From assembly GCF_014203735.1 (NCBI RefSeq), contig NZ_JACHJQ010000008.1, positions 62,001 through 126,000 on the forward strand: a stretch of DNA of 64,000 bases, in the 5' to 3' direction. Made by a program: the position numbers and the translations under genes. Under the pieces are notes generated by a model. It had not been told where the DNA came from. It ran no database searches and saw only the letters and a program-made list of their open reading frames with translations. Shown in pieces: positions 5,656 to 21,930 of this stretch. Positions within the stretch are counted from its first letter, which is position 1. Every line of letters starts with the position of its first letter. The stretch comes from Actinophytocola algeriensis (GTDB lineage: Bacteria > Actinomycetota > Actinomycetes > Mycobacteriales > Pseudonocardiaceae).

Positions 5656-6198
5656 TCAGGGCACGATCGCCACGGTGACCTGCCCTTCAAGACGTGCCAG
5701 TTCCTCGGCGGTGGCGTCGTAGGTGCCCAGGTGGAGGGTCTGGTCGGAGTACTCGATGCCCTCGGCGTTGTAGTAGAAGCCGAGGTTGCCCCAGGGGATG
5801 AAGTAGATGAGGTCGCCGTCTTCGGGGTCCGACCCCGGTGTGCCCTCGTGGTTCAGCTCCCGGGGGAGGTCGACGATCTTCTCGCGGCCGCCGAGTTCCT
5901 CGAGGGTGAGGGTCAGTGGCAGCATGCCGAGGAGGTCGCGGGTGGCGGGGCTGTCCTCGCCGATCGTCACGTCCACCGACTCCGAGCCCGCCGTGAACCG
6001 CACCACCGTGCCCACCACGTCCTGACCGGTGCTCTCCGCGGGGGCACCGCCCGGCGCCGGTGACGAACTGCCCGGAGCGGACGGAGCAGGCGAGAGTGTC
6101 GAGGTGCCACTGGACGCGGTGTCCTCGCCGGGGGGTGCGTTGCAGGCGGTGAGGGCGAGCGCCAGCGTGAGCGCTGCTGCCGTGGTGAGCGTGTTCAT
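5656..6198 (-). CDS. Lipoprotein with cyclophilin-like fold domain
   Basis: A 180-residue predicted lipoprotein. The signal peptide MNTLTTAAALTLALALTAC ends in a lipobox (LTAC) with Cys19 as lipidation site. A Ser/Pro/Ala-rich linker of about 40 residues follows, then a cyclophilin-like domain (ATRDLLGMLPLTLTLEELGG; LIYFIPWGNLGFYYNAEG). The domain resembles the small cyclophilin-like family found in actinobacteria (Cyclophil_like type), not a classical peptidyl-prolyl isomerase with known catalytic residues. It is divergently transcribed from a second, cytoplasmic cyclophilin-like gene; the shared 126 bp intergenic region carries one copy of the GTACTGNCAG motif. Confidence 0.85.
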   Translation of the reverse strand: MNTLTTAAALTLALALTACNAPPGEDTASSGTSTLSPAPSAPGSSSPAPGGAPAESTGQDVVGTVVRFTAGSESVDVTIGEDSPATRDLLGMLPLTLTLEELGGREKIVDLPRELNHEGTPGSDPEDGDLIYFIPWGNLGFYYNAEGIEYSDQTLHLGTYDATAEELARLEGQVTVAIVP

Positions 6199-6278
6199 CC
6201 GGACCTTCTCGTACGCGTGGTGGACGGGCTGATGCCATTCAATCGGCGGACGCGCCACGGAGGGAGTTCCTGCCGTGA

Positions 6279-6297
6279 GGTGTACTGACAGGGCACC
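6279..6297. promoter_or_regulatory. Putative operator, GTACTGNCAG motif copy 1
   Basis: The sequence GGTGTACTGACAGGGCACC is centred at 6288, in the divergent region between the lipoprotein gene (start 6198) and the cyclophilin-like gene (start 6325). It shares GTACTG-N-CAG with copies centred at 8022, 9835 and, as GTACCG-N-CAG on the other strand, 14726. The outer bases are also symmetric here (GGTG...CACC). I infer a transcription factor site; no binding data are available. Confidence 0.6.
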
Positions 6298-6324
6298 TGT
6301 GCGCACCTTCCGACAGGAGGCGGC

Positions 6325-6708
6325 GTGGTTATCGTGGACGGCATGAAGATCGAACTGGTGATCGGTAATGCGCGCGTCGAGGGCGAGCTGTACGACCACC
6401 CGGTCGCCCGGCAACTCGCGGCTGCGCTGCCGCTCGATCTGGTGTTCACGGACTTCAACCAGGTGGAGAAGGTCGCTGACCTCGGTCAGGAGTTGACCCT
6501 GCGGGATGTCCCGGACGCCGATGCTCCCGAGGCCGGGGAGATCGGCTACTACGCCCCCACCCGGGGTCTCGTGCTGTACTACGACCGGCCGGGGCGGTGG
6601 CCGGGCCTGGTGCGGATGGGACGCTTCACCCACGACCTGGACGCGCTGCGCGACCTGCCGGACGGAACGCGCATCCGGATCACCACTGCTCCCACCCGCT
6701 CCGCCTGA
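6325..6708 (+). CDS. Cyclophilin-like fold protein, cytoplasmic
   Basis: A 127-residue protein with the same fold family as the divergent lipoprotein but without a signal peptide. Recognisable features are ELYDHPVARQLAAALPLDL, VADLGQELTLRDVPDADAPE and GEIGYYAPTRGLVLYYDRPG. A strong AGGAGG at 6315-6320 favours the GTG start at 6325 or the in-frame GTG at 6334 over the ATG at 6343. Function is unknown; related proteins are small single-domain beta-barrels. Its 3' end overlaps the 3' end of the convergent MFS gene by about 130 bp. The GTACTGNCAG motif sits 37 bp upstream of the start. Confidence 0.85.
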   Translation: MVIVDGMKIELVIGNARVEGELYDHPVARQLAAALPLDLVFTDFNQVEKVADLGQELTLRDVPDADAPEAGEIGYYAPTRGLVLYYDRPGRWPGLVRMGRFTHDLDALRDLPDGTRIRITTAPTRSA

Positions 6709-7925
6709 CCGCGCTGGTCAGGCGGCGGCCACCGGCACGGGCGCGGCACACTGGAGCGCTCCTTACGGAGCAGGAGTGTGAGCGGTACGAAGTAGAGCGC
6801 GGCGATGCCGGTGCCGACGAGGACCGGACCGATGGCGCCGAGGGCGGACTCCAGTGCGAACCCGGCGAGCCACGAGCCGACGGCGGTGCCCAGGTTGAAC
6901 GACGAGGTGCTCAGCGCCGACGCAAGAGTGGGGGCGTGGGCGGCGTAGCGGACGGCCATGCCGATCAGGACCGGGTTGGTGGCCATGCCGAACAGGCCGA
7001 GCAGCACCACGAGCGCGATGGTGATCACGAGGTTGTGGGAGAACACGGCGAGTGCGGCGAGCACGAGGAAGGTCGCCGTCGCCGAGACGAACAGGACCGC
7101 GTAGGGGCGGTGGGTGCCGAGGCGCCCGCCGAGGTTGGACCCGATGAACGCGCCGGACCCGTAGCCGGCGAGCACGAGGGGTACTGCCGCGGCGGCGAGT
7201 CCGCTGTTCGTTGTCAGCAGCGGTGCGATGAAGCTGTAGGCGGCCAGCGACGAACCACATACGATCGCGCAGCCCGCCAGGACGAGCCAGACACGTCCGT
7301 CGCGCAGGCGCGCGATCTCTGCCCGCACCGACGGGGCCGGGCCGGACCCGGGGGCGGCGGCGACCCGCCGGTAGACGATGACCGCGGCGGGCACCGCGAG
7401 GGCGGCGAGTGCCCAGAACGTGCCGCGCCAGCCGATCACCTGTCCGGCGAACGCGCCGAGCGGGACCCCGATGACGTTGGCGAGCATGCCACCGCCGAGC
7501 ACGATCCCCAGCGCCCGCGAACTCGCCGCCGGGCCAGCGGCCTTCGCGCCGACGACCGCGGCGACGGCCCAGAACGCGCCGGTGGCGAGCGCGGTGACGA
7601 ACCGGGCGCCGAGGATGAGCGGGAGGCTCGTGCTGAGCGCGACGACGACGTGCCCGGCCGCGAAGACCACCAACGCGAGACTCAACGTCGTCTGGCGCGG
7701 CAGCTTGAGGGTCGCGATCGCCATCGTGGGGGTACCGACGATCATCCCGAGCGCGAACACGGTGATCGTCAAACCGGCGTCCGCGACCGGGATCCCGAGG
7801 TCGGCCGCGATCTCGGGCAGGATCCCGGCCACGACGAACTCGGTCGTGCCCATCAGGAACACACCCGCGGCGAGCACGTAGATCACGAACGGCAGCCGGC
7901 CGGACGACGGAACGGTGGTGGACAT
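6579..7925 (-). CDS. MFS transporter of the AraJ/Cmx drug-efflux type
   Basis: A 12-helix major facilitator. The opening VYVLAAGVFLMGTTEFVVAG is typical of the AraJ/PbuE/Cmx proteins that export chloramphenicol-like drugs, purine analogues or sugars. Other visible segments are ARFVTALATGAFWAVAAVVG and LGIVLGGGMLANVIGVPLGA. The conserved part ends near LTLLLRKERS (about nt 6740). The remaining roughly 50 residues are Arg/Pro/Ser-rich and lie antisense to the cyclophilin-like gene, so the real C-terminus has either drifted through stop-codon loss or this tail is an artefact of a nearby indel. It is divergent from an SDR gene, with a GTACTGNCAG site between them. Confidence 0.88.
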   Translation of the reverse strand: MSTTVPSSGRLPFVIYVLAAGVFLMGTTEFVVAGILPEIAADLGIPVADAGLTITVFALGMIVGTPTMAIATLKLPRQTTLSLALVVFAAGHVVVALSTSLPLILGARFVTALATGAFWAVAAVVGAKAAGPAASSRALGIVLGGGMLANVIGVPLGAFAGQVIGWRGTFWALAALAVPAAVIVYRRVAAAPGSGPAPSVRAEIARLRDGRVWLVLAGCAIVCGSSLAAYSFIAPLLTTNSGLAAAAVPLVLAGYGSGAFIGSNLGGRLGTHRPYAVLFVSATATFLVLAALAVFSHNLVITIALVVLLGLFGMATNPVLIGMAVRYAAHAPTLASALSTSSFNLGTAVGSWLAGFALESALGAIGPVLVGTGIAALYFVPLTLLLRKERSSVPRPCRWPPPDQRGQAERVGAVVIRMRVPSGRSRSASRSWVKRPIRTRPGHRPGRS

Positions 7926-8012
7926 GGCGAGGCCGGTCCCTCCCTGTTGACGCTGCGATGTGGCGTTCTCAGGTCACCAGGTCCGCGGCAGGCCGGGGAG
8001 TCCCGGCCGAAA

Positions 8013-8029
8013 GGTGTACTGCCAGTGCC
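8013..8029. promoter_or_regulatory. Putative operator, GTACTGNCAG motif copy 2
   Basis: GGTGTACTGCCAGTGCC, centred at 8022, lies between the MFS gene (start 7925) and the SDR gene (start 8088). It matches GTACTG-N-CAGTRC, so both half-sites are nearly intact. It is placed to act on both divergent promoters. Role inferred from recurrence at four sites in this block. Confidence 0.6.
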
Positions 8030-8087
8030 TCCCAGAAACCGGGCGAGGCTGCCTAACGTGCGGGAGAGATGCGAAGAAGGGATCACC

Positions 8088-8737
8088 ATGACGATGATCG
8101 CGATCATCGGTGCCGGGCCAGGTCTGGGCTCGGCTGTCGCCGAGCGGTTCGGGCGCGAAGGGTTCTCCGTCGCGCTGATCTCGCGCCGTCCCGAGAACCT
8201 CGCCGAGGACTTGGGTGTGCGGGGGATCGCCGCGAAGGCGTTCCCGGCGGACGTACACGACCGTGACGGGCTGACCCGGGCCTTGTCGGCCGCGGCCGAG
8301 GAACTGGGGCCGGTCGAGGTGCTGCAGTACAGCCCGGTGCCGCGCCGTGAGTTCCTGTGTCCCGTGCTGGACACGAAAGTCGAGGATCTGTCCGCGGCCG
8401 TCGAGTTCTCGATCCTGGGCCCGGTTACCGCCGTGCAACAGGTGCTGCCCGGCATGAGCGAGCTGGGGCGCGGCACCATCTTGCTGGTCAACGGCGCGAG
8501 CGCGGCGACACCGAACGGCAATGTCGCGGGCACCTCGATCGCGTTCGCGGGGGAGTCCGCTTACGGGGCGATGCTCCACGACGCCCTCGCACCGAGGAAC
8601 ATCCACGTCGGCCAGCTCATCATTCCCGGCGCGATCGGCGGCGGCGACCCACGTATGCCCCCGAGTCCCTGGCCGAACGCCTGTGGGCAATCCACACCGG
8701 ACGCGGCCGGTTCCGCACCACCGTCGGTGCCGAGTGA
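8088..8737 (+). pseudogene. SDR-family oxidoreductase, single-base frameshift near the C-terminus
   Basis: The ATG at 8088 opens a short-chain dehydrogenase-like frame: MTMIAIIGAGPGLGSAVAER has the nucleotide-binding glycines, and FGREGFSVALISRRPENL supports an NADPH preference. The active-site region is atypical, with ESAYGAMLHDALA in place of YxxxK. At about 8653 the frame breaks: the coherent ending (TYAPESLAERLWAIHTGRGR to the TGA at 8735-8737) is in the next frame. Restoring one base after GACCC gives GGGDPTYAPESLAE. The stop of the restored frame overlaps the GTG of the next gene (GTGA), an organisation that fits an intact two-gene operon. The shift could therefore be recent or a sequencing error. 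Without repair the protein would have a wrong tail. Confidence 0.75.
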
Positions 8738-9777
8738 GAAACCACCGATGTGTCCTCGCTGCCGTGCTCGGCATGGTCGTGCTGATGTCGTGCGCGGAAC
8801 CGGCAGGCGAGACCGCCGCGGCATCCTCTCCGGACGTCGAGGTGGTCGCCGACGAACTCGAAGCCCCGTGGTCGATCGCGTTCCACGGCGAGACACCGCT
8901 GGTCAGCGAACGGGACACCACCCGCGTACTCGAACTCGACCGCGGCGGGAACACCCGAGAGGTGGCCACCATCGCCGGGGCCACCCCGAACGGTGAGGGC
9001 GGTTTGCTCGGGATCGCCGTCCACGACGGCCACGTGTACGCGTACTTCACCGCGGACGGGGAGAACCGCCTTGAACGCTACGCCCTGACAGGCGATCCTG
9101 GCGCACTCGCCCTCGGGTCGGCGGACACGATCCTCGACGGGCTCCCGTCGGCGAGCTACCACAACGGCGGCCGGATCGCCTTCGGTCCCGACGGCATGCT
9201 CTATGTGACCGTCGGCGACGCCGGGAACCGTGGCAGCGCCCAGGAACATCGAGGCACTGTCGGGAAAATCCTCCGCATGACCCCGGACGGGCAGGCGCCC
9301 GACGACAACCCGTTCCCGGGCTCGCTGGTCTACAGCTACGGACACCGCAATCCCCAGGGCATCGCCTGGGGCGAGAACGGCACCCTGTACGCGAGCGAGT
9401 TCGGGCAGGACATCTGGGACGAGCTGAACGTGATCGAACCGGGCGGGAACTACGGCTGGCCCGAGGTCGAAGGCATCGCGGAACGGGACGGGTTCGTCGA
9501 CCCGGTTCTGCAGTGGGCACCAGCTGACGCCAGCCCCAGCGGCATCGCCGTTTCCGGTAACGCCATTCACATCGCGAACCTGCGCGGGCAACGGCTCCGC
9601 GAGGTCCCGCTCGGTGACCTCGCCAACTCCAGCGAGCGGTTCAGCGGGGAGTACGGCCGCCTTCGGGACGTCGTCGTCGCGCCCGACGGCGCGCTCTGGT
9701 TGCTCACCAACAACACCGACGGCCGTGGCGACCCGTCCGCGGGTGACGACCGGATCCTCCGGCTTCCCGCAGTGTGA
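8734..9777 (+). CDS. PQQ-type soluble aldose (glucose/sorbosone) dehydrogenase, lipoprotein
   Basis: A 347-residue predicted lipoprotein: a short signal peptide (VRNHRCVLAAVLGMVVLMSC) with lipobox LMSC, then a six-bladed beta-propeller of the YliI/GdhB type. Visible family features are ELEAPWSIAFHGETPLVSER, GEGGLLGIAVH, SYHNGGRIAFGPDGMLYVTV, SYGHRNPQGIAWGENGTLY and NYGWPEVEG. Members oxidise aldose sugars with PQQ outside the membrane, though substrates of actinobacterial homologues are mostly unknown. The GTG overlaps the stop of the SDR gene, so the two are translationally coupled. The propeller is complete in length. No PQQ biosynthesis genes are present in the window. Confidence 0.88.
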   Translation: MRNHRCVLAAVLGMVVLMSCAEPAGETAAASSPDVEVVADELEAPWSIAFHGETPLVSERDTTRVLELDRGGNTREVATIAGATPNGEGGLLGIAVHDGHVYAYFTADGENRLERYALTGDPGALALGSADTILDGLPSASYHNGGRIAFGPDGMLYVTVGDAGNRGSAQEHRGTVGKILRMTPDGQAPDDNPFPGSLVYSYGHRNPQGIAWGENGTLYASEFGQDIWDELNVIEPGGNYGWPEVEGIAERDGFVDPVLQWAPADASPSGIAVSGNAIHIANLRGQRLREVPLGDLANSSERFSGEYGRLRDVVVAPDGALWLLTNNTDGRGDPSAGDDRILRLPAV

Positions 9778-9827
9778 CCGGCGCAGGCCGACGTTTCCAG
9801 CGTACGGCCTGCGCCGCCGCGGTGGGA

Positions 9828-9842
9828 GGTACTGTCAGTACA
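9828..9842. promoter_or_regulatory. Putative operator, GTACTGNCAGTAC motif copy 3 (perfect palindrome)
   Basis: GGTACTGTCAGTACA contains GTACTG-T-CAGTAC (9829-9841), the only copy with both half-sites perfect. It lies 59 bp upstream of the ATG of the Fe-S subunit gene and downstream of the sugar dehydrogenase. A further TTTGACAGGG follows at 9846, which could serve as a -35 element. Assignment as an operator is inferred from the shared motif. Confidence 0.62.
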
Positions 9843-9893
9843 TGCTTTGACAGGGTCTCCCACCCCAGCGTCAGGCGTGGTGTTCTCGACCGC

Positions 9894-10526
9894 ATGCCGA
9901 CTCCTTTGCCACCACCACCCGGGAATGCCGAAACGGATTCGGATTCGTGGTCCCGGCGTACTTTCCTTGCCGCTTCCGCTGTTGGCAGCGCTGTCGCTGT
10001 CGCCGGACCGTCGTTGCTAAGCGCGGAGCCCACTGCCGCCGCCGCTGAGCCGGTCGCCGATGCACACGGCAGCCGGGTTACGTTCGCGGTGAACGGCGAG
10101 CGCCGCACGGTGACCGTCGACAACCGCACGTCGTTGCTGGACCTGGTGCGTGAGCACTTCGGGTTGACCGGCACGAAGAAGGGCTGTGACGCGGGTGCTT
10201 GTGGTGCGTGCACGGTGCTGGTCGACGGCCACCGCGTCAACGGCTGCCTGACCCTCGCCGTGCGGCTGGACGGCGCCGAGGTGATCACCATCGAAGGACT
10301 TTCCCGGGACGAGCTGCACCCGTTGCAACAGGCGTTCATCGACCAGGACGCGTTCCAGTGCGGGTTCTGCACGCCGGGCCAGATCATGTCCGGCGTCGGG
10401 TGCATCCGGGAGCGGCACACCGGGTCGGCGAGCGAGATCCGGGAGTGGATGAGCGGGAACATCTGCCGCTGCGGGTGTTACGTGAAGATCGTCAAGGCGG
10501 TCCAGCAGGCCGCGAAAGGCCGGTGA
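9894..10526 (+). CDS. Exported [2Fe-2S] subunit of a molybdenum hydroxylase (PaoA/YagT-like)
   Basis: A 210-residue iron-sulfur subunit of a xanthine oxidase-family enzyme. A twin-arginine signal (SRRTFLAAS at residues 20-28, then a hydrophobic stretch) targets the folded complex for Tat export. The plant-ferredoxin cluster is bound by GCDAGACGACTVLVDG plus Cys118. The second cluster is bound by QCGFCTPGQI and NICRCGCYVKI. Length and organisation match PaoA of the periplasmic aldehyde oxidoreductase. It is the first gene of a three-gene operon (7 bp to the FAD subunit). The perfect GTACTGNCAGTAC site 59 bp upstream suggests co-regulation with the neighbouring dehydrogenases. Confidence 0.93.
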   Translation: MPTPLPPPPGNAETDSDSWSRRTFLAASAVGSAVAVAGPSLLSAEPTAAAAEPVADAHGSRVTFAVNGERRTVTVDNRTSLLDLVREHFGLTGTKKGCDAGACGACTVLVDGHRVNGCLTLAVRLDGAEVITIEGLSRDELHPLQQAFIDQDAFQCGFCTPGQIMSGVGCIRERHTGSASEIREWMSGNICRCGCYVKIVKAVQQAAKGR

Positions 10527-10532
10527 GCGGTC

Positions 10533-11513
10533 GTGTTTCCTTTCACCTACACGAAAGCCGCGGACACGCGGGCGGCGGTCGCGGCCGGGCAGCGCGGTGG
10601 CCGGTTCATCGCCGGTGGCACGACGCTGGTCGACCTGATGCGCGAGACCGTCGAACGGCCGGACACGGTCGTGGACATCAGCGGACTGCCCCTGGGCGAG
10701 ATCACGACGACCCGCAGTGGCGGGGTGCGGATCGGTGCGTTGGTGCGGATGTCAGACGCGGCCGCCGATCGCCGGGTACGGAACACGTTCCCGGTGATCT
10801 CGCAGGCGCTGGAGCTGAGCGCGTCGGCGCAGCTGCGGAACATGGCGACCATCGGCGGCAACATCATGCAGCGCACCCGCTGCACCTACTTCCGTGACGT
10901 GTCCGCGGCCTGCAACAAACGCGCACCCGGTTCCGGCTGCGCCGCGCTGGAAGGGTTCAACCGCAGCCACGCGATCCTCGGCGGCTCGAGTCAGTGCGTG
11001 GCCACCCATCCTTCTGATGTCGCGGTGGCGTTCGCCGCGCTGGAGGCGTCCGTGCACCTGCTCGGGCCGGACGGGGAACGCGGCGTGCCGTTCACGGAGT
11101 TCCTGCTCCGGCCGGGGAACACGCCCGAGCGGGAGCACGCCCTGCGGCCCGGTGAGCTGATCACCGCCGTCGAAATCCCCGCGCACCCGCGTCCGCTGCG
11201 GTCGGGCTACCTGAAGGTGCGGGACCGGCAGAGCTACGAGTTCGCGCTCACCTCCGCCGCGGTCGCGCTGCACCTCGGCGGCGGGGTGGTCCGCGCGGCG
11301 AAGGTCGCGGCCGGGGGAGTGGGCACGGTGCCGTGGAAGCTGACCGCCGTGGAGCAGCGCCTGCTCGGTGAGCGGCCGTCCGACCGGCTGTGGACCGCCG
11401 CGGCCGCGGTCGCCGCCGACGACGCGGAGCCGTTGGCGCACAACGAGTTCAAGGTCGAGTTGCTCAAGCGCACCGTCGAACGCCAGCTGCGCGTCGTGGG
11501 AGGTACCCGGTGA
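10533..11513 (+). CDS. FAD-binding subunit of the molybdenum hydroxylase (PaoB/YagS-like)
   Basis: A 326-residue FAD subunit. The FAD pocket motifs are RFIAGGTTLVDLM and LRNMATIGGNIMQRTRC. Four cysteines in the segment RTRCTYFRDVSAACNKRAPG, GSGCAALEG and SSQCVATHPSD match the extra [4Fe-4S] site described for PaoB and absent from ordinary xanthine dehydrogenases. A CO dehydrogenase flavoprotein C-terminal domain follows. It starts with GTG, 7 bp after the Fe-S subunit, and its TGA overlaps the GTG of the Mo subunit. It has no signal peptide of its own, consistent with export as a complex with the Tat-tagged subunit. Confidence 0.93.
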   Translation: MFPFTYTKAADTRAAVAAGQRGGRFIAGGTTLVDLMRETVERPDTVVDISGLPLGEITTTRSGGVRIGALVRMSDAAADRRVRNTFPVISQALELSASAQLRNMATIGGNIMQRTRCTYFRDVSAACNKRAPGSGCAALEGFNRSHAILGGSSQCVATHPSDVAVAFAALEASVHLLGPDGERGVPFTEFLLRPGNTPEREHALRPGELITAVEIPAHPRPLRSGYLKVRDRQSYEFALTSAAVALHLGGGVVRAAKVAAGGVGTVPWKLTAVEQRLLGERPSDRLWTAAAAVAADDAEPLAHNEFKVELLKRTVERQLRVVGGTR

Positions 11514-13720
11514 CCCGGCAGCCAAATCGGCAACCCCAGAAGGCCGTCGGCACCCCGCAGTCCCGGGTGGACGGGCGGTTGAAGGTGACCGGTCAGGCCA
11601 CCTACGCCGCCGACCACGACGTGACCGGTGTCGCCTACGGCGTCATGGTCGACGCCACCGTGGGGCGCGGCCGGATCACCGGTGTCGACACCCGTGCCGC
11701 GCTCGACCAGCCCGGCGTGCGTGCGGTGCTCCACCACGGCAACGCGCCCCGGCTGCCCTATGTGGACAACCCGGGCTCGAACAATCCGCCGGGTGAGCGG
11801 TTGCGGGTGTTCCAGGACGACCGCGTGCGGTTCTTCGGCCAGCCGGTCGCGGTCGTGGTGGCGGACACGCTGGAGGCCGCGCAGCACGCGGCGAGCCTGG
11901 TCACGGTCACCTACGCGGCCGAACCGCCGTCGACCGACCTCACCACCGCCCCGGCGGACGAACCCCAGCGCTACGCCCGCGGTGACGCCGAGGCCGCGTG
12001 GGCCGCGGCGCCGGTCAAGCTCGACCTGGCCTTCCGGTTTTCCCGCAACCACCACAACCCGATGGAGCCACACGCCACGATCGCCCGCTGGGAGGGCGAC
12101 ACCCTGACACTGTGGGACAAGACGCAGTGGGTCGTTGGCGGCACCCAGCAGGAGCTGGCGTCGGTGTTCGGGATCCCGCAACAGTCGGTGCGGGTGATCT
12201 CGCCGTTCGTCGGCGGGGCGTTCGGCAGCGGCCTGCGGGCGTGGCCGCACGTCACCGTCGCCGCGCTGGCAGCCCGGGTCACCGGCCGCCCGGTCAAGCT
12301 GGTGCTGTCGCGCCGGCAGCTGTACTTCGGCACCGGCCACCGCCCCGCCTACACCTACGCGCTGAAGCTGGGCAGCGACCGGCGCGGCAGGCTGGCGGCG
12401 TCGATCCAGGACATCAGGGCGGAGACGTCGAGCTACGAGACGTTCACCGAGGCCGTGATGGGCCCGGGGCACATGATGTACCGCACCCCGAACGTGCGGC
12501 AGGCGTACGCGACGGTGCCGCTGGACGTGAACACCCCTATCTGGATGCGCGGTCCTGGCTACGCCACCGGCGCCCACGTCGTCGAGTGCGCGATGGACGA
12601 GCTCGCCCACGAGCTCGGCGTCGACCCGATCGAGTTGCGGCTGCGCAACGAACCCGAGACCGACGAGTCCAGCGGGCTGCCGTTCTCCAGCCGCAGGCTG
12701 CGGGAATGCCTGGCCACCGGCGCTCGCGAGTTCGGCTGGCACCGCCGCAACCCGGCACCGCGGTCCACCCGCGACGGCGACTGGCTGGTCGGCACCGGCA
12801 TGGCCGCCGCCGTCTACGACTTCGGCCGCGCCCCGGCCCAGGCACACGCGCGGATCAACGCCGACGGCACCGCGCTGGTGCAGGCCGCGACCAGCGACAT
12901 GGGACCCGGCACCTACACCTCCATGCCGCAGGTCGCCGCGGACGCCCTCGGTCTGACCATGACCACCGTGGAGTTCCGGCTCGGCGACTCGCTCATGCCG
13001 CCGACCCCGCCGCACGGCGGCTCCATGACCATGGCCAGCGTCGGCTCCGCCGTGCAGGACGCCTGCGACAAGGTCCGCCGCCAGGCCATCACCCTCGCCG
13101 TCAACGACGCGCGGTCTCCGCTGCACCGCGTCAACCCCGATGACGTCGTCGTCCGCGATGGCCGGATGCACGTGAAGAACGATCCCACCCGCGGCGAGAC
13201 CTACCGGCAACTCCTCGGCCGCAACCAGCGCGACCACCTCGAAGTGATCGGGTCCTGGGGGCCGCCGGAGCAGAGCCGCTACTCGATGCACGCCTTCGGC
13301 GCGGTGTTCACCGAGGTCGCCGTCGACGACCGCCTCGGTCTGGTCCGGGTCCGGCGGATGCTCGGCGTCTACGACGCGGGCCGGATCATCAACCCGAAGC
13401 TCGCCGACAGCCAGGCACTGGGCGGCATGGTGGGGGGCATCGGCCAGGCCCTGCTGGAGCACACCGTCACCGATGCTCGCGACGGGCGGATCGTCAACGC
13501 CAACCTCGCCGACTACCTCGTGCCCGTGAACGCCGACATCCCCGACCTGCGGGCCATCTACCTCGACGGCGGCAACGACCAGAACGCCGACCCGATCGGC
13601 GTGAAGGGACTCGGGGAGGTCGTGATCGTCGGTGTCGCGGCCGCCATCACCAACGCGGTCTTCCACGCGACCGGCCGCCGGATCCGCGAACTCCCTATTA
13701 CCGCGGAAGCCCTGCTCTGA
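11510..13720 (+). CDS. Molybdopterin-binding catalytic subunit (PaoC/YagR-like aldehyde oxidoreductase)
   Basis: A 736-residue large subunit starting at a GTG that overlaps the previous stop (GTGA). Domains in order: N-terminal a/b hammerhead (SRVDGRLKVTGQATYAAD), then the molybdopterin-binding domains with FVGGAFGSGLRAWPHVTVAA, MRGPGYATGAHVVECAMDEL and AATSDMGPGTYTSM. The catalytic Glu is in the C-terminal GVKGLGEVVIVG. The family oxidises aldehydes or N-heterocycles using water as oxygen donor. Together with the Tat-tagged Fe-S subunit this is a periplasm-side (here extracytoplasmic) oxidase. A paoD/xdhC-type maturation chaperone is not encoded next to it. A 21-bp inverted repeat 16 bp after the stop terminates the operon. 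Confidence 0.93.
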   Translation: MTRQPNRQPQKAVGTPQSRVDGRLKVTGQATYAADHDVTGVAYGVMVDATVGRGRITGVDTRAALDQPGVRAVLHHGNAPRLPYVDNPGSNNPPGERLRVFQDDRVRFFGQPVAVVVADTLEAAQHAASLVTVTYAAEPPSTDLTTAPADEPQRYARGDAEAAWAAAPVKLDLAFRFSRNHHNPMEPHATIARWEGDTLTLWDKTQWVVGGTQQELASVFGIPQQSVRVISPFVGGAFGSGLRAWPHVTVAALAARVTGRPVKLVLSRRQLYFGTGHRPAYTYALKLGSDRRGRLAASIQDIRAETSSYETFTEAVMGPGHMMYRTPNVRQAYATVPLDVNTPIWMRGPGYATGAHVVECAMDELAHELGVDPIELRLRNEPETDESSGLPFSSRRLRECLATGAREFGWHRRNPAPRSTRDGDWLVGTGMAAAVYDFGRAPAQAHARINADGTALVQAATSDMGPGTYTSMPQVAADALGLTMTTVEFRLGDSLMPPTPPHGGSMTMASVGSAVQDACDKVRRQAITLAVNDARSPLHRVNPDDVVVRDGRMHVKNDPTRGETYRQLLGRNQRDHLEVIGSWGPPEQSRYSMHAFGAVFTEVAVDDRLGLVRVRRMLGVYDAGRIINPKLADSQALGGMVGGIGQALLEHTVTDARDGRIVNANLADYLVPVNADIPDLRAIYLDGGNDQNADPIGVKGLGEVVIVGVAAAITNAVFHATGRRIRELPITAEALL

Positions 13721-13735
13721 CCTGATCGCAGACCC

Positions 13736-13789
13736 GGAAGAGGCCCGGTCGGGGTGGCCAGATCGTGTCACCCCGACCGGGCCTCTTCC
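13736..13789. terminator. Bidirectional hairpin terminator
   Basis: A perfect inverted repeat with 21-bp arms: GGAAGAGGCCCGGTCGGGGTG at 13736-13756 pairs with 13769-13789, leaving a 12-nt loop. It lies between the convergent Mo-subunit gene (stop 13720) and the regulator gene (stop 13793). There is no U-tract on either side, as is usual for actinobacterial terminators. The position suggests it stops transcription from both directions. Confidence 0.85.
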
Positions 13790-13792
13790 AGC

Positions 13793-14683
13793 TCAGCGGG
13801 AGATGTTCCGCGGGGCGGGCTGTGCCTCGTGGGAGGCGGCCCAGGAGGCGAGCAGCCGCAGCGCTTCCTCGGACGGTGAGCCGGGCTCGGCGGTGTAGAT
13901 GGTCAGCGTGAGGCCTGGTTCGGTGGCCATTTCCAAGCCTTCGTAGGCGATGGTGATGTCACCGACGACGGGGTGGTGGAAGGTCTTCATGCCGGTGCTG
14001 TGGTGGCGGACGTTGTGGGCGCCCCAGCGGGTGCGGAACGCCTCGCTGCGGGTGGACAGTTCCCCGACCAGGTCGTGGAGCCCCTTGTCGTAGGGGTTGC
14101 GACCGGCTTCGGTGCGCAGGATCGCGACGCAGATGTCGGCGAAGCCGTCCCAGTCCGGGTAGAAGTCGTGGGAAGCCGGATCGAGGAACTGGAACCGGGC
14201 GATGTTCGGCGGCTGCTCACGACTGTCGTAGACCGGCGAATAGAACGCCTGTGCGAGCTGATTGGCGGCCAGCAAGTCCATCCGGCCGTTGCGCACGAAC
14301 GCCGGTCCCGCGGTGACCGCGTCCAGGGTCCACTGCAGACTCTTATGCGGGCTCCACTGCTTGCCCTTGGCCCGCCGCCGGGGCCGGACGATCGCGCTGG
14401 TGCCGTCCGCGGCGCGGGCAAGGTCGAACAGGTGCGCCCGCTCCGCCTCGTCCAACTGCAGCGCCCGCGCGATCGCGTCGAGGACGGTGGCCGAGACCCC
14501 GGCGAGCGCGCCACGCTCGAGCTTCGAGTAGTACTCGATGCTCACATCGGCCAGCGCGGCCACCTCACTGCGACGCAGGCCCGGCACCCGGCGGTTGCTC
14601 CCGGCGGGCACCCCAGCCTGCTCAGGGGTGATCTTGGCGCGCCGCGAGATCAGGAACTCACGGACTTCTTCACGATTGTCCAC
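13793..14683 (-). CDS. XRE-family regulator with MmyB-like ligand-binding domain
   Basis: A 296-residue transcription factor. The N-terminus VDNREEVREFLISRRAKITP and the helix-turn-helix RRVPGLRRSEVAALADVSIE followed by YYSKLERG are the family signature. The C-terminal domain (NGRMDLLAANQLAQAFYSPV; HPVVGDITIAYEGLEM) matches the MmyB-like sensor that binds a small, often fatty-acid-like, ligand. I place the start at the GTG at 14683 because homologues begin with (M)DNR; the longer frame to 14734 would start inside the putative operator. The gene is divergent from a zinc alcohol dehydrogenase. A GTACYGNCAG site lies 43 bp upstream of this start, suggesting autoregulation and control of the redox genes around it. 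Confidence 0.9.
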   Translation of the reverse strand: MDNREEVREFLISRRAKITPEQAGVPAGSNRRVPGLRRSEVAALADVSIEYYSKLERGALAGVSATVLDAIARALQLDEAERAHLFDLARAADGTSAIVRPRRRAKGKQWSPHKSLQWTLDAVTAGPAFVRNGRMDLLAANQLAQAFYSPVYDSREQPPNIARFQFLDPASHDFYPDWDGFADICVAILRTEAGRNPYDKGLHDLVGELSTRSEAFRTRWGAHNVRHHSTGMKTFHHPVVGDITIAYEGLEMATEPGLTLTIYTAEPGSPSEEALRLLASWAASHEAQPAPRNISR

Positions 14684-14721
14684 GCCTCCACGGTAAGCCC
14701 CACACCCTGTCGGAGGGGTGC

Positions 14722-14735
14722 TCTGTCGGTACACC
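14722..14735. promoter_or_regulatory. Putative operator, GTACYGNCAG motif copy 4
   Basis: TCTGTCGGTACACC on the plus strand reads GGTGTACCGACAGA on the minus strand, centred at 14726. It keeps GTAC-CG-A-CAG and the GGT flank seen in copies 1 and 2. It sits between the MmyB-like regulator (start 14683) and the alcohol dehydrogenase (start 14820), where such regulators usually bind. Confidence 0.6.
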
Positions 14736-14819
14736 TTTCAGGAGAAACTCCCAGGTCGCGCGCGGCGCGGGTTAGCTGGACACTGATCGATTCGACACTC
14801 TGAAGAAGGAGAGAACGTC

Positions 14820-15842
14820 ATGCGCGGCGCTGTGCTGCACGCCCCCGGCGACGTCCGGGTCGAGGACCGCGAGGACCCGACGATCGTCGCCCCGACGGAT
14901 GCGGTCATCCGTCTGTCCGCGACCTGCGTGTGCGGGTCGGACCTGTGGCCCTACCGCGGCATCGAGACCGTCGACGGGCCGTCCCCGATGGGCCACGAGT
15001 ACGTCGGCGTTGTCGAGGAGGTCGGCAGCGAGGTCACCACGATCAAGCCGGGCCAGTTCGTGGTCGGCTCGTTCTTCGCCTCGGACAACACCTGCGAGAT
15101 CTGCCGGTCCGGCTACCACTCCTCCTGCGTCCAACGCGAGCTGATGGGCCCGCTCGGCGCCCAGGCCGAGTACCTGCGCGTACCGCTGGCCGACGGCACC
15201 CTCGTCGCCACCCCCGACGTGCCGTCCGACGACCTGATCCCGAGCTTCCTGGCGGCCTCCGACGTGCTCGGCACCGGCTGGTTCGGCGCCGTCGCCGCCC
15301 AGGCGGGACCGGGCAGGACTGTCGCGGTAGTCGGCGACGGCGCGGTCGGGCTGCTCGCGGTCCTGGCCGCCCGACAACTCGGCGCGGAACGGATCATCGC
15401 GATGAGCCGCCACACGTCACGACAGAAACTCGCCCTCGAGTACGGCGCGACCGACATCGTCACCGAACGCGGCGACGACGGTGTGGCGGCGGTCAAGGAC
15501 CTCACCGACGGGCTCGGCGCCCACAGCGTCATCGAGGCGGTCGGCACCCAGGAGTCCATGATGCAGGCCATCCGCGCCACCCGCCCCGGCGGGCACGTCG
15601 GCTACGTCGGCGTCGCCCACGACGTCACCCTGCCCGGCGAGGAGTTGTTCTTCTCCCACGTCCACCTGCACGGCGGTCCCGCCCCGGTCCGCCAGTACCT
15701 GCCCGAGCTGATCGACCTGATCTGGAACCGCCGGATCGACCCGGGCAAGGTCTTCGACCTCGAACTCCCGCTCGACCAGGCCGCCGAGGCCTACCGGGCC
15801 ATGGACGAACGCCAAGCGATCAAAGCACTGCTCCGGGTGTGA
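14820..15842 (+). CDS. Zinc-dependent alcohol dehydrogenase family protein
   Basis: A 340-residue medium-chain dehydrogenase. Catalytic zinc ligands are in ATCVCGSDLWPYRG and MGHEYVGVVEEVG. The structural zinc loop is partial: SDNTCEICRSGYHSSC keeps three of the usual four cysteines, a variant seen in this subfamily. The NAD(P) fold motif is VAVVGDGAVGLLAVLAARQL. GAGAACG upstream provides a weak ribosome binding site. The gene is divergent from the MmyB-like regulator and followed by a small secreted protein gene whose GTG overlaps its stop, then an SDR. The arrangement suggests a regulator-controlled alcohol/aldehyde conversion operon. Confidence 0.9.
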   Translation: MRGAVLHAPGDVRVEDREDPTIVAPTDAVIRLSATCVCGSDLWPYRGIETVDGPSPMGHEYVGVVEEVGSEVTTIKPGQFVVGSFFASDNTCEICRSGYHSSCVQRELMGPLGAQAEYLRVPLADGTLVATPDVPSDDLIPSFLAASDVLGTGWFGAVAAQAGPGRTVAVVGDGAVGLLAVLAARQLGAERIIAMSRHTSRQKLALEYGATDIVTERGDDGVAAVKDLTDGLGAHSVIEAVGTQESMMQAIRATRPGGHVGYVGVAHDVTLPGEELFFSHVHLHGGPAPVRQYLPELIDLIWNRRIDPGKVFDLELPLDQAAEAYRAMDERQAIKALLRV

Positions 15843-17291: not shown

Positions 17292-17419
17292 GTGTCGCTA
17301 GGTGAACCAACGGCCCGCCCCTGGCTCCGCACCGCCCGCCTGTGGGCCCGGCCCGACGGACCGGAAGTCCGTCAGAGAGACTGGGGGCCAGTGCCCGCCC
17401 TCTCGACCTGGAGCCTTTG

Positions 17420-18367
17420 ATGCCGCAAGGGACCGTCCGTTGGTTCGACGCCGAACGGGGTTTCGGCTTCCTCGCGCCCGAGGACGGCTCGCCGGACGTG
17501 TTCGTGCACGCCTCCGAGATCGTCGAGGACGGCGGCGCGAAAATGCTCCGCGAGGGTCAGGCCGTCGTGTTCGAGGTCGGCGAGAACGACCGCGGACCCC
17601 AGGCGCTGCGCGTTCGCGTCACCGCCGATGCGGCCACCGGCAGCGCCGTGGGCCTGCTCGGCACCGTCAACTGGTACGAGCCGGGCAAGGGGTACGGCTT
17701 CGCGTCGCCGGACGGCGGCGGCGCCGACATCTTCGTGCACAGCTCCGCCATCGTGACCGGCGGCGTGGTCACCGAGGGGCAGCGGGTGGCCTTCCTGATC
17801 GTCGAAGGCGAGCGCGGCCCGCAGGCCGGGCACGTGATCCCGCTGGGAGCAGGGGCCGGCTCACCCGCTGCGGCTGGTATCGCGGACGGTGCCGACGGCA
17901 CGGTGGCCTGGTACGACGAGGACAAGGGCTTCGGCTTCATCAACCCCGACTCCGGCGCCGGGGACGTCTTCGTTCACGCCCGGGCCCTGGCCGAGGGGCT
18001 GACGTGGCTCGCGGAGGGCGACCGCGTCGCCTACGAGATGGCTAGTGGAGACAAGGGCCCGCAGGCCCGTGACGTGCACCTGGTCCGGGGCACCGAGCCC
18101 CAGACGGCGCCGCGGCGGTCGGCACCTGCCGCGGCCGCAGGGCCGGCGGCGCGGGACGTGCCCGTACGAGGCGGCGAGGGCGTCGTCGCGCGCTACGACG
18201 GCGACCGCGGCTTCGGCTTCATCACCCCGGACGCAGGCGGCGACGATCTCTTCGCCCACGTGTCCGTGATCATGGGGTCGGAGCCGCTGCAGAAGGGTGA
18301 CCGGGTCCGGTACGCGGTGCGTCAGAGCGACCGGGGCCCGCAGGCCGACCGCATCGAACGCCTCTGA
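17420..18367 (+). CDS. Protein with four tandem cold-shock domains
   Basis: A 315-residue protein built from four cold-shock domains at about residues 1-68, 78-141, 157-222 and 252-315. Each keeps the RNP1-type motif ([32 protein letters not shown]) and the RNP2-type motif (DVFVH, DIFVH, DVFVH, DLFAH). Each ends with a ...RGPQA-type sequence. Linkers are Ala/Gly/Pro-rich, the longest before domain 4. Ordinary bacterial Csp proteins are single domains of 65-70 residues; four in one chain recalls eukaryotic UNR/CSDE1 proteins. RNA or single-strand DNA binding is expected from the family. ATG chosen because domain 1 begins directly after it; GGAG lies 8 bp upstream. A short hairpin (CGCCTC/GAGGCG) spans the stop codon. 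Confidence 0.92.
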
Positions 18368-18595: not shown

Positions 18596-19438
18596 TTAGA
18601 CCTGGTCGCAGAGCTCGATCTTCATGAGCCAGCGGACGTTGATCACGGTGCAGGCCAGCGTGAGTAGCGCCAGTGTGGTGCGTTCGGTCCGGTCGTAACG
18701 CAGCCCGAGGCGTTTGAACCGCAGCAGCCAGGAGATGGTGCGTTCGACGACCCAGCGGACCCGGCCGAGGCGGGACTTGCCCTCAATCCCGGGCCGGGCG
18801 ATACGGACCTTGATACCGCGGCGGGTCAGGTAGCGGCGGCAGCGGCGGTAGTCGTAGCCCTTGTCGGCGTGCAGCTTGTCCGGTCGGCATCGTGGCCGGC
18901 CCGCCCGGCCGTGGTGGCCGCGCACGGTCGGGTTCGTGTCCAGCAGCGGCTCGAACAGCATGCTGTCGTGGGTGTTTGCCGCCGACAACATGATGTGCAG
19001 CGGTAGCCCGTTCGCGTCGCACAGAACGTGGTACTTGGAGCCGGCTTTACCCCGGTCAGTGGGGCTGCGGCCGGTCAGCTCGCCCCCCTTTTTCGACCGC
19101 ACCGACACCGCGTCGATGCAGCCTCTGGTCCAGTCGAGCTCGTCGATGTTGGACAGCTCGTAGAGCACGAGCTGGTGCAGCCGGTCCCACACGCCGGCGT
19201 CATGCCACTCACGTAACCGCCGCCACGCGGTGTGCCCGGAACCGCATCCGAGCTGCTCGGGTAGGTCTCGCCAGCGGCAGCCGGTGTCGAGCACGAACAA
19301 GATCCCCTCTAGCGCGGCACGGTCATCGATCCGGGGCCGCCCACCCGGACCGCGCGGCGCTGGTCGGGACGGGATCAGGGGTTCGATCAGCTCCCAGAGC
19401 CGGTCTTCGACCCGCCGCTGCTGCGTCGTCTTCGCCAT
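18596..19438 (-). CDS. IS5-family DDE transposase
   Basis: A 280-residue transposase. The N-terminal DUF4096-type domain includes RLWELIEPLIPSR and FVLDTGCRWRDLPEQLGCGS. The catalytic triad is visible as CIDAVSVRSKKGG (Asp), LHADKGYDYRRCR (Asp) and RWVVERTISWLLRFKRLGLR (Glu). ATG start at 19438. Full length and without internal stops, so probably still active. It is transcribed against the recombinase gene it interrupts. Confidence 0.93.
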   Translation of the reverse strand: MAKTTQQRRVEDRLWELIEPLIPSRPAPRGPGGRPRIDDRAALEGILFVLDTGCRWRDLPEQLGCGSGHTAWRRLREWHDAGVWDRLHQLVLYELSNIDELDWTRGCIDAVSVRSKKGGELTGRSPTDRGKAGSKYHVLCDANGLPLHIMLSAANTHDSMLFEPLLDTNPTVRGHHGRAGRPRCRPDKLHADKGYDYRRCRRYLTRRGIKVRIARPGIEGKSRLGRVRWVVERTISWLLRFKRLGLRYDRTERTTLALLTLACTVINVRWLMKIELCDQV

Positions 19439-19493
19439 GACTGCCCACGATCGACGACCAGGACCGGCAGGTTACGCAGTGACACACCCTTAA
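18596..19493 (-). mobile_element. IS5-family insertion sequence
   Basis: A single-ORF element. The right end is set near 19493, because GTTCAGGATGCGGTGACGTCG just beyond it is recombinase coding sequence (QDAVTSRGW). The terminal sequence reading inward is TTAAGGGTGTGTCACTGCGT. The left end is not defined: no good inverted match to the right end is found before the transposase stop, so this side may be truncated or have diverged. Total size of about 0.9 kb fits one-ORF IS5-family members. Confidence 0.7.
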
Positions 19494-20927
19494 GTTCAGG
19501 ATGCGGTGACGTCGCGGGGGTGGCAGCGGTCGGTGTCGGAGGAGTTGGTCGAGGGTTTCGGCGTCATCGTGGTGGAGTTCTTCGATGAGGGGTGTTCGCG
19601 TCGGTGGTCGTGGTCGGATCGCCGGGCTGCGTCCGCGTTGTTGAGGGCTGCCGAAGATCCGGATCGTGAGTTCGACGCGGTGGTGGTGGGGGAGTACGAG
19701 CGCGCGTTCTATGGCGATCAGTTCCGGCAGGTGGTTGCTCGGTTGGCCGTGGCAGGGGTGCAGGTGTGGTTGCCGGAGGCGGGTGGTCCGGTTGAGTTGG
19801 ATAGTCCGGTGCATGAGGCGTTGATGGTGTTGTTGGGTGCTCAGGCGCAGCGTGAGGTGGTGCGTGCTCGGCACCGGGTGTTGGCGGCGATGCGGGTACA
19901 GACGCGGGTGCAGGGCCGGTTTCTGGGTGGTCGTCCGCCGTACGGGTACCGTCTCGCGGATGCTGGCCCGCACCCGAACGCCATCCACGCGCGGTGGGGC
20001 CGGCGGTTACACGTGTTGGAGCCCGACCCGGTCACGGCGCCGTGGGTGGAGTGGATCTTCACCGAGCGTGCGGGTGGGCGGAGCGTAGCGTCGCTGGTGC
20101 GTGAGCTGAACGAGCGTGGTGTGCCGTGTCCGTCGAGCGCGGATCCAAGTCGGAACGGGCATCGTTCGGGAGAGCGGTGGATCGTGCGCACCGTGGCCAT
20201 GATCTTGGAGAACCCGCGGTACACGGACCGGCAGGTGTGGAACCGGCAGAGTACCCAGGGACATGGCTCCGGGGGCCGCGTTAGCGGTCGTGGTTCCGGT
20301 TCGGTGCGGTGGAACCCAGCAGAGGAGTGGGAGGTCTCCGAACACTTGACGCATCGCCCGTTGGTCGACGATGCCACGTTCTTGGCGGTGCAGGGGATGC
20401 GTACGGGCAGGACCACCAAGGACGGCGAGACCCGGCAGTATGCGTTGGCCGGGTTGGTGGGGTGTGGCGTGTGCGGCCGGCGGATGGACGCGCACTGGGT
20501 GCACGGCCGAGCCGGGTACCGCTGTCGACACGGGTACAACAGCGCGACACCTCGCTCGGCTGCGCCACGCAACGTGTACGTGCGCGAAGACCGCCTCCTC
20601 GAGGTCCTGCCCGGCTTGCTCGGCGGCAGCGAGGACAGAGGGGCTGGCCCGGTCCCGAGTGGACCCGCGCCGGATCCGGTAGAGGTCCTCCGTCATCGAC
20701 GGCTACAGATCGCGTGCACATATCAGGGGCAGGAACTCCGGCAAGAAGCTCCAAGGGGGATCATTTCTGTGTCAAGTCCTCCAGGCCAGACGGCGTTGGC
20801 ATTGGACTGGACAATGAGCGATGACACCGCGTACCGAAGTGGCTTACTCAGCGACCCGCAAAGCCCGACTTCAGGTAGTCTGACGAAAGAACCGGACCTT
20901 ATTTACGTAGGCACGCCGACGGATTGA
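19494..20927 (+). pseudogene. Large serine recombinase, 5' end removed by the IS insertion
   Basis: The frame QDAVTSRGWQRSVSEELVEG continues through GFGVIVVEFFDEGCSRRWSW, AVVVGEYERAFYGDQFRQVV, the recombinase domain GRFLGGRPPYGYRLAD and the zinc-ribbon-like GCGVCGRRMDAHW to a coiled C-terminus. Residues before QDAV, which in this family contain the start and the catalytic serine (R-x-S-T-E/D), are absent. Directly upstream is the IS5-type element, with an in-frame stop (TAA 19491-19493) at its edge. The first available start is GTG at 19506. Without its catalytic serine the product cannot recombine DNA. The gene once served an integrative element, and the C-terminal 60 residues may be divergent. 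Confidence 0.82.
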
Positions 20928-21107
20928 AGATTCCGTGGGGTAAAGGAGTGTCCGAGGCCGGAGTTGCACACTAACCCTACGCCTTGTGCTGGCGTGATCG
21001 TGCACATGCATAGTATGGATCAAACGACTCGGGTGACACCGTGCGCCGTCACTCGTGCGGGTGAGATGAGAGCGTTCCTGGCCGGACCCCGAGAACTGAT
21101 CCACTCG
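20928..21107. other. Spacer with weak similarity to the tRNA-Leu 3' end
   Basis: No gene is seen. GTGTCCGAGGCCGGAGTTG (20949-20967) resembles GTGTCCGAGGGGGGACTTG (42110-42128, the 3' end of the tRNA-Leu on the minus strand), with the first 10 bases identical. A degenerate attachment site is possible, but so is chance. Confidence 0.25.
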
Positions 21108-21120
21108 GTGTGAGAGTCGT

Positions 21121-21930
21121 TCATCGGTGGATGCAGGCCGCAGCGTAGTCCGCCGGTGCCTGGTAGCCGAGCGAGCTGTGCCGTCGGCGGTTGTTGTAAT
21201 CGTCTTTCCAGTCGGTGATCACCACGCGTGCGTGCGCGAGGGACCAGAACATGTTGATGCTGAGGCATTCGTCGCGGACTCGGGAGTTGAACGACTCGAC
21301 GTAGCCGTTGCGCCAGGGCTGGCCGGGCGGGATGAACGACAGGCCGACACGTTCGCCTGCCCAGTCGGCCATCGCGTCGCAGGCCAGCTCGGGGCCGTTG
21401 TCGCAGCGCAGCACCGCCGGATAGCCCCGCTGCACCGCGAGGCGGTCGAGCTCGTCGATGAGCCGGTCCGCGGTGATCGAGCGTTCGACCAAGCCGCCGA
21501 GGCACTCGCGGGTGTGTTCATCCACGATGGAGACGATCTTGACCGGTCGACCGTCGGTGGTGGCGTCGAACTGGAAGTCCACCGCCCAGACCCGGTTCGG
21601 CGCGTCGGCCTTCGGTGGGTCTGGCGCGGTCGTGGTGCCGATGCGTTTGCGTCGCCGGTGTTGCGGCACCCGCAACCCTTCCTCACGCCAGAGCCGCTGG
21701 ACCTTCTTGTGGTTCACGACCCAGCCCTCACCGCGCGCGTCGTGGTAGGCGTTACGGAACCCGCGCCGCGGATGCCCCTTCGCCCAGCCACGCAACCAGG
21801 CCCGCAACGCCGCGTCCGGATCGCCTGCTGTCGTGCTCGCCGGCGCACGTCGCTGCGTCGCACGGTGCTGACCGGTCACCCGGCACGCGAACCGCTCGGA
21901 CAGCCCCAGAACGGTCATCAGGTGCCGCAC
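21121..21930 (-). CDS. IS3-family transposase OrfB (integrase core)
   Basis: A 269-residue rve-type transposase counted from the first ATG; the functional product is probably an OrfAB fusion made by frameshifting, which would add LLSPERRRAAV upstream. Catalytic residues of the DDE triad are in VWAVDFQFDATTDG, LRCDNGPELACDA and PPGQPWRNGYVESFNSRVRD. HTH_21 type sequence (GHPRRGFRNAYHDARG) precedes the core. It ends at the left inverted repeat. Confidence 0.92.
   Translation of the reverse strand: MRHLMTVLGLSERFACRVTGQHRATQRRAPASTTAGDPDAALRAWLRGWAKGHPRRGFRNAYHDARGEGWVVNHKKVQRLWREEGLRVPQHRRRKRIGTTTAPDPPKADAPNRVWAVDFQFDATTDGRPVKIVSIVDEHTRECLGGLVERSITADRLIDELDRLAVQRGYPAVLRCDNGPELACDAMADWAGERVGLSFIPPGQPWRNGYVESFNSRVRDECLSINMFWSLAHARVVITDWKDDYNNRRRHSSLGYQAPADYAAACIHR

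Follow-up and report, generated by a model that had tools for sequence, protein, structure and literature searches.

MmyB-like regulators are abundant in actinomycetes, where they have been linked to antibiotic and signalling genes; a 2009 paper on methylenomycin regulation is probably the source of the B-boxes of MmyB itself. In the accessible part of PMC3406030, 16 MmyB-like regulators are counted in Streptomyces coelicolor, pseudo-palindromic B-boxes are mentioned for MmyB, a dehydrogenase gene is described as frequently divergent from regulators of the MmyB/MltR family, and SCO4944 is predicted to regulate SCO4945. The DNA analysed here, called the window throughout, is a stretch of 64,000 nucleotides of contig NZ_JACHJQ010000008.1 of Actinophytocola algeriensis; whole-genome scans cover 9.73 Mb. 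It encodes an XRE regulator of this family (13793-14683, minus strand) and carries four copies of a palindrome (palindrome A) beside oxidoreductase, export and cyclophilin-like genes. With a probability of roughly 0.78, palindrome A would be the operator of this regulator, which is predicted to be a ligand-sensing activator of itself and of a local oxidoreductase and export set.

The regulator combines an N-terminal XRE-type helix-turn-helix (HTH) domain (HTH_31, 37.4 bits against a cut-off of 27) with a C-terminal MLTR_LBD domain (PF17765, 194.3 bits against a cut-off of 26.3). Its sole relative in the PDB at E<=0.01 is 3pxp (E 1.2e-6), which is the MltR structure treated in the accessible part of PMC3406030; its own structure model is poor (mean pLDDT, the predicted local distance difference test, 63.9). 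The genome encodes about 20 MmyB-like paralogues (23 matching rows, some of which are pieces of one gene).

Palindrome copies and their specificity

The four copies of palindrome A lie at 6279-6297 (GGTGTACTGACAGGGCACC), 8013-8031 (GGTGTACTGCCAGTGCCTC), 9826-9844 (GAGGTACTGTCAGTACATG) and 14717-14735 (the putative autoregulatory site), and their centres at 6288, 8022, 9835 and 14726 are where a preliminary description of this sequence had placed them. As that description also stated, 9829-9841 (GTACTGTCAGTAC) is a perfect odd-centred palindrome, GGT usually stands in front (in three of the four copies, the 9835 copy having GAG on the plus strand and CAT on the minus strand), and the sites lie 37-97 bp from a start codon. 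The measured distances are 37 bp to a GTG at 6325 and 55 bp to an ATG at 6343 from site 6288; 66 bp to the start of the short-chain dehydrogenase gene SDR1 at 8088 and 97 bp to that of a major facilitator superfamily (MFS) gene at 7925 from site 8022; 59 bp to the start of the Fe-S subunit gene of a molybdenum (Mo) hydroxylase at 9894 from site 9835; and 43 bp to the regulator start at 14683 and 94 bp to the start of an alcohol dehydrogenase (ADH) gene at 14820 from site 14726.

Counterparts of the autoregulatory site were sought at 80 loci of regulator orthologues, 70-83% identical to the window protein, from Streptomyces, Micromonospora, Nonomuraea, Actinomadura, Saccharothrix, Kibdelosporangium, Arthrobacter, Rhodococcus and others. 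The strict core is present within 180 bp upstream of the regulator gene at 57 of them, and a site matching at least 14 of 19 positions, with its centre 43-45 bp before the regulator start and the consensus AGGGGTGTACYGNCAGTACAYCCCT, at 70; the expectation that the intergenic site would be conserved in relatives is thus borne out. The ten loci below 14 of 19 positions (nine of Arthrobacter/Rhodococcus type with an altered sequence, and L105) were dropped from the training of model R1, which comprises the 48 distinct sequences among the 70 sites.

Operator models from other species single out the four window copies. A matrix trained on the relatives' regulator-upstream sites, with the window sites left out, ranks 8022 (25.5 bits), 9835 (24.6), 6288 (24.0) and 14726 (22.1) first in the window, the next position scoring 15.4. 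By R1, with 150 of 6604 first-look candidates scored, the same sites hold ranks 1-4 in the genome (14726 with 23.1 bits, 8022 with 21.8, 6288 with 19.2 and 9835 with 16.0), followed by a site of 13.9 bits. Upstream of the paralogues, 14 of the 23 matching rows were searched over 300 bp from starts guessed from the alignment (the window gene and 13 others, the nine rows without a usable N-terminus being left out); none of the 13 other paralogues has such a site within this distance (best -1.0 bits, against 22.1).

Shorter or looser patterns do not have this specificity. The bare core GTACYGNCAG is matched six times in the window (expectation 0.83), and none of 100 shuffles gave as many; the matches fall at five places (6282, 8016, both strands at 9829/9832, the minus strand at 14723, and 50438). 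With 226 matches genome-wide, against 417 for a reversed control pattern, the core was rejected as a signature of the regulon. Without mismatch, GGTGTACYGNCRGNRCMYC has just three occurrences in this genome, at 6288, 8022 and 14726; the 9835 copy has two mismatches, six other places have one and many have two, and at three mismatches the counts (717 + 822) differ little from those of the control (737 + 729). The degenerate palindrome GGTGNNCYGNCRGNNCACC with two mismatches was likewise too loose, with 1152 matches per strand against 735 for the control. The genome-wide motif search proposed in the preliminary description therefore succeeds insofar as the four sites top a model from other species, but not with the bare core. 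The operator is 19-25 bp long rather than the bare core.

Co-occurrence of site and regulator

At E<=1e-85, the regulator finds a match in 130 of 390 genomes of the same family. The 20 genomes whose match reaches at least 412 bits, a line that was set after the regulator scores were seen, include 19 with a site (at E<=0.003), against 11 of the 370 others (Fisher 1.2e-23). Five of the 19 (G083, G237, G251, G033 and G215, which by position are the genomes of loci L054, L055, L058, L066 and L071) had contributed to the training of R1; without them the count is 14 of 15. The lone miss, G305, has a matrix site of 30.8 bits before its regulator gene (L265), which the stricter filtering of the co-occurrence count probably discarded. 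Together with the top-four rank in the genome and the conservation in relatives, this co-occurrence upholds the earlier suggestion of a regulon marked by the palindrome with an MmyB-type regulator.

Of the remaining 11 site-bearing genomes, seven do have an MmyB match at E<=1e-85, though a weaker one; the other four (G087, G217, G327 and G382) have none at this level. These four genomes, three of which have MmyB pieces beside the site (none at G327), speak for a different regulator that binds the palindromes and counts the MmyB gene among its targets, as does G409, where site and MmyB gene are on separate contigs and no window homologue adjoins the site; binding by the MmyB protein is, moreover, a prediction from sequence. 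Such an outside regulator is nevertheless improbable, given that the site is tightly coupled to the regulator gene across families and that an altered operator goes with an altered recognition helix. Ten Arthrobacter/Rhodococcus-type orthologues with an altered operator have TR in the recognition helix instead of SK or AK (comparison of 18 of the 80 loci, then of 28 sequences). This covariation is suggestive only: the ten form one clade, and TK (L057) and SR (L243) are partial exceptions with the usual operator.

At the loci of these TR-helix orthologues (L117, L119, L120, L122-L124, L127, L128, L130 and L132), the right half of the operator reads GGGACTCCC rather than TACAYCCC in eight of ten, L119 and L132 having variants. 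In five genomes of one genus (L253, L257, L258, L259 and L262), two convergent regulator copies, 68-82% identical to that of the window, each have a palindrome of their own. A conservation test within the genus of the window was not usable, as all five other genomes lack a regulator at E<=1e-85 and a site above 16.6 bits.

Two unlike promoter arms

On its two sides the palindrome is flanked, at fixed spacing, by promoter arms of different kinds, an arrangement that is new here. In an ungapped alignment of the arms of the 70 relatives' loci, anchored at the palindrome centre, the arm toward the regulator gene has TAnnnT at +30 to +33 in 70 of 70, with the start codon at +43 to +45, while its -35 region shares at most three of six positions with TTGACA in all of them and at most two in 67. 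With this spacing the regulator transcript is probably leaderless, as predicted from the sequence. The opposite arm, mostly toward ADH, has TAnnnT at these positions in 0 of 70, CTC at +22 in 59, GGTT..CT or similar at +44 in 58 and a full box B (at least 6 of the 8 positions of GGGANTCCC) in 36; in the regulator arms the last three features each occur in 0 of 70.

In the window, box B is centred at +22 from each of the four sites on one side: GGAACTCCC (6262-6270, minus strand, 7 of 8 positions) toward the gene of a cyclophilin-like lipoprotein, GGGACTCCC (7996-8004, minus strand, 8 of 8) toward the MFS gene, GGGTCTCCC (9853-9861, plus strand, 7 of 8) toward the Mo hydroxylase genes and GAAACTCCC (14744-14752, plus strand, 6 of 8) toward ADH. 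The opposite arms of 6288, 8022, 9835 and 14726 match it at 1, 2, 3 and 2 of 8 positions; these unboxed arms lead to the cyclophilin-like gene CypL2, SDR1, no recognised gene and the regulator, respectively. At least six matches occur at 0.5% of random window positions, and box B accompanies four of four window sites against one of 67 other motif-like loci of the genome (65 distinct). It was defined after most of the arms had been inspected, the 6288 arm toward the lipoprotein gene being the one fresh case. It also occurs in nine of 11 of the relatives' Mo hydroxylase arms.

The -10-like elements of the window follow the same division. TACCGT (14690-14695, minus strand, +31) of the regulator promoter is the counterpart of the relatives' TAnnnT, TAACGT of SDR1 (8054-8059, plus strand, +32) has the same geometry, and TATCGT of CypL2 (6330-6335, plus strand, +42), noted by eye, lies about one helical turn further. 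Three of the boxed arms have their -10-like elements at +44, namely GGTTAGCTGG toward ADH (14770-14779, plus strand), which has its equivalent in 58 of 70 of the relatives' arms opposite the regulator, GGTGTTCTCG toward the Mo hydroxylase (9879-9888, plus strand) and GGTGACCTGA toward the MFS gene (7969-7978, minus strand).

On the unboxed arm of 9835, TACGCT (9799-9804, minus strand) stands at +31 as in the regulator arms and points into the upstream glucose/sorbosone-dehydrogenase-type gene, a possible antisense promoter. CTCCC-N16-18-GGTTNNCTGG was tried as a common promoter type and discarded; a single copy stands in this genome, at the ADH promoter, a second genome likewise has one, and three further genomes lack it.

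From the computed sites, their conservation, co-occurrence and spacing, we infer the following course of events. A dimer of the regulator would bind the palindrome, its PAS-like domain would sense a small hydrophobic or carbonyl-type ligand, and transcription would most likely be activated. On regulator-type arms, with the transcription start implied by the -10-like element, the dimer would sit at about -43 (class II-like) and substitute for the missing -35 element; on target-type arms it would sit at about -58 and act with box B, centred 22 bp downstream. The set so controlled would comprise the regulator itself, ADH, an exported PaoABC-like Mo hydroxylase, the MFS exporter, SDR1 and the two cyclophilin-like proteins, and may serve detoxification or catabolism.

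The same regulator at the same operator might instead be a repressor, which would block its own and the target promoters until released by its ligand. On the regulator arm, palindrome and -35 region overlap, as would suit such a protein, and MsrR, another XRE regulator, whose gene diverges from an MFS gene, represses both genes according to the accessible part of PMC7532634. Repression is nonetheless unlikely: a good -10 element with at most three of six -35 matches is typical of activator dependence, the palindrome of the target arms lies upstream of the -35 region, and PMC3406030 describes MmyB as turning on its own cluster.

For activation, a more elaborate reading of the two arms can tentatively be put forward, as somewhat less likely to hold than to fail. 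The operator may be polar, rigid and composite, with a -35-less, activator-dependent and leaderless promoter in one direction and a two-site promoter in the other, where the usual elements would give way to a second dimer on box B (two helical turns away, at +22) and to GGTTnnCTGG as a non-standard -10-like element. If true, this would amount to a promoter grammar of the whole subfamily, by which a regulon could be packed as one array or as scattered units.

Candidate target genes and comparison with known systems

The candidate targets are encoded on both strands around the four sites. The gene divergent from the regulator (14820-15842, plus strand; Pfam ADH_zinc_N, ADH_N) encodes a zinc-dependent medium-chain ADH-type oxidoreductase, which scores 127.1 of 512.9 against the mycothiol-dependent formaldehyde dehydrogenase model TIGR03451, below the cut-off. 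The Mo hydroxylase operon (9894-13720, plus strand) has three subunit genes, for Fe-S (9894-10526), flavin adenine dinucleotide (FAD; 10533-11513) and molybdenum cofactor (MoCo; 11510-13720), of which the Fe-S and MoCo subunits match best to PaoA and PaoC. SDR1 is encoded at 8088-8651 (plus strand), where the frame breaks between 8636 and 8657; the break, seen over 8088-8740 against an intact relative, may be a sequencing error or mark a pseudogene. Downstream of it lies the glucose/sorbosone-dehydrogenase-type (GSDH) gene (8740-9777, plus strand; GSDH 217.6 bits on the open reading frame 8521-9777). On the other side of site 8022 is a Cmx/CmrA-like MFS exporter gene (6579-7925, minus strand; MFS_1, and NF033135 with 347.8 bits, under the cut-off of 400), and site 6288 is flanked by CypL2 (6325-6708, plus strand; PF18050, 95.1 bits) and by the gene of the secreted or lipoprotein cyclophilin-like protein, CypL lipoprotein (5656-6198, minus strand; PF18050, 93.6 bits, with a lipobox noted by eye).

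For these genes, 106 loci of relatives were examined, a site being counted at 15 bits or more and within about 350 bp upstream. A site precedes the ADH homologue at 77 of 83 loci (L242 and L074 being one place) and the Mo hydroxylase Fe-S gene at 11 of 13. As in the window, the ADH homologue (at least 60% identity) is divergent from the regulator at 67 of the 80 orthologue loci; 32 of these 67 have at least one further co-directional homologue (SDR1, CypL2, MFS, SDR2 or Mo hydroxylase) within 6 kb, and 14 have at least three. The homologues are thus arranged either in co-directional arrays behind a single operator, as in many Streptomyces, or, as here, in separate units with their own operator copies, so that one regulon can be traced between an array and a dispersed form. 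The regulator gene and several target units accordingly share one operator that is conserved in relatives, strongly for the regulator, ADH and the Mo hydroxylase and weakly for SDR1, CypL and MFS.

Several observations weigh against the regulon as proposed. Independence of the Mo hydroxylase cases is limited because a single genus (g10) supplies seven of the 11, L054 and L241 belong to the same genome, and the site at L060:11007, beside a Mo hydroxylase operon, precedes what reads like a degenerate start of an MmyB-like regulator. Sites of their own are rare in relatives before SDR1 (2 of 21), CypL2 (4 of 22), MFS (1 of 22), CypL lipoprotein (1 of 6), SDR2 (0 of 31) and GSDH (0 of 2), and in both SDR1 cases (L253 and L259) the site counted is the regulator's own, with SDR1 on its far arm. 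The low counts for these inner genes can be ascribed to the co-directional arrays behind ADH, although the arrays do not prove co-regulation. Strong sites without a neighbouring homologue of a window gene occur in L244, L245 and L246 (near 3545, 23.5-27.8 bits) and at L064:13530, L079:13706, L082:10969 and L125:7275; those of L244, L245 and L246 may belong to further targets or to other regulators. Because the palindrome also precedes MmyB paralogues merely 55-65% alike, operator specificity is by subfamily. A 19-column matrix, run on the four sites and on 20 other hand-picked places, puts one of the latter, C3:183092 (21.9), above 14726 (20.7); with 21 columns C3:183092 drops to 18.8, under all four window sites. 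The partial coverage of the R1 ranking, the late definition of box B and the overlap with the -35 region, all mentioned above, belong here too.

The rarity of positional counterparts of the 6288 and 8022 copies would also be expected if these copies were chance occurrences or relics and the functional sites were those of regulator/ADH and Mo hydroxylase alone. There is little to recommend this restriction: both copies score above or near the autoregulatory site (24.0 and 25.5 against 22.1 by the matrix, 19.2 and 21.8 against 23.1 by R1), both have box B at +22, and cyclophilin-like genes have separate sites of their own in L249, L250 and L266.

Two claims of the preliminary description need revision for the wider regulon. 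Its five transcripts are too few, since up to seven promoter arms are in reach of the sites. Its designation as a redox regulon fits the enzyme families, from which a role in aldehyde/alcohol handling and export may be inferred, but does not extend to redox sensing. Thiol-based sensing of the MsrR kind was considered and rejected as unlikely because no invariant or nearly invariant cysteine is found among 28 aligned relatives of the regulator.

Beyond the ADH gene, 17342-18367 encodes a single protein in whose translation about four cold-shock-like repeats can be made out by eye, and transposase-like and recombinase-like open reading frames (by eye) occupy 18596-21930. The block may have been acquired, because these frames adjoin it and none of the genus's five other genomes has the regulator (E<=1e-85).

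Among the papers listed by searches of open-access literature, none was seen to print the palindrome; for literal motif strings, all matches listed rest on the 9-base string alone. With so sharp and conserved an operator, targets can be read from genome sequence, and defined DNA is available for binding and ligand tests.

Among described systems, the PaoABC periplasmic aldehyde oxidoreductase resembles the Mo hydroxylase in its three subunits and in a twin-arginine-like N-terminus (by eye), and its NCBIfam models are those that the large and Fe-S subunits match best; it differs in that the window subunits score under the equivalog cut-offs (PaoC 595.1 of 1180, PaoA 224.1 of 322) and the FAD subunit matches another family best. 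MsrR of Corynebacterium glutamicum is likewise an autoregulated XRE regulator with a divergent MFS gene; according to the accessible part of PMC7532634 it combines thiol-based oxidation sensing with repression, whereas the 28 aligned relatives of the window protein have no conserved cysteine. Closer is the SCO4944/SCO4945 pair of Streptomyces, an MmyB-like gene adjoining a medium-chain-type dehydrogenase gene and conserved in streptomycetes; likened to the window pair by description only, it has one predicted target and no DNA motif in the accessible part of PMC3406030. The MmyB/MltR family as a whole shares with the window the HTH and MLTR_LBD architecture, the divergent dehydrogenase gene and the 3pxp match. 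To the family as described in that part of PMC3406030, in which no operator sequence was met, the window adds an operator sequence, a multi-unit regulon and a two-arm promoter.

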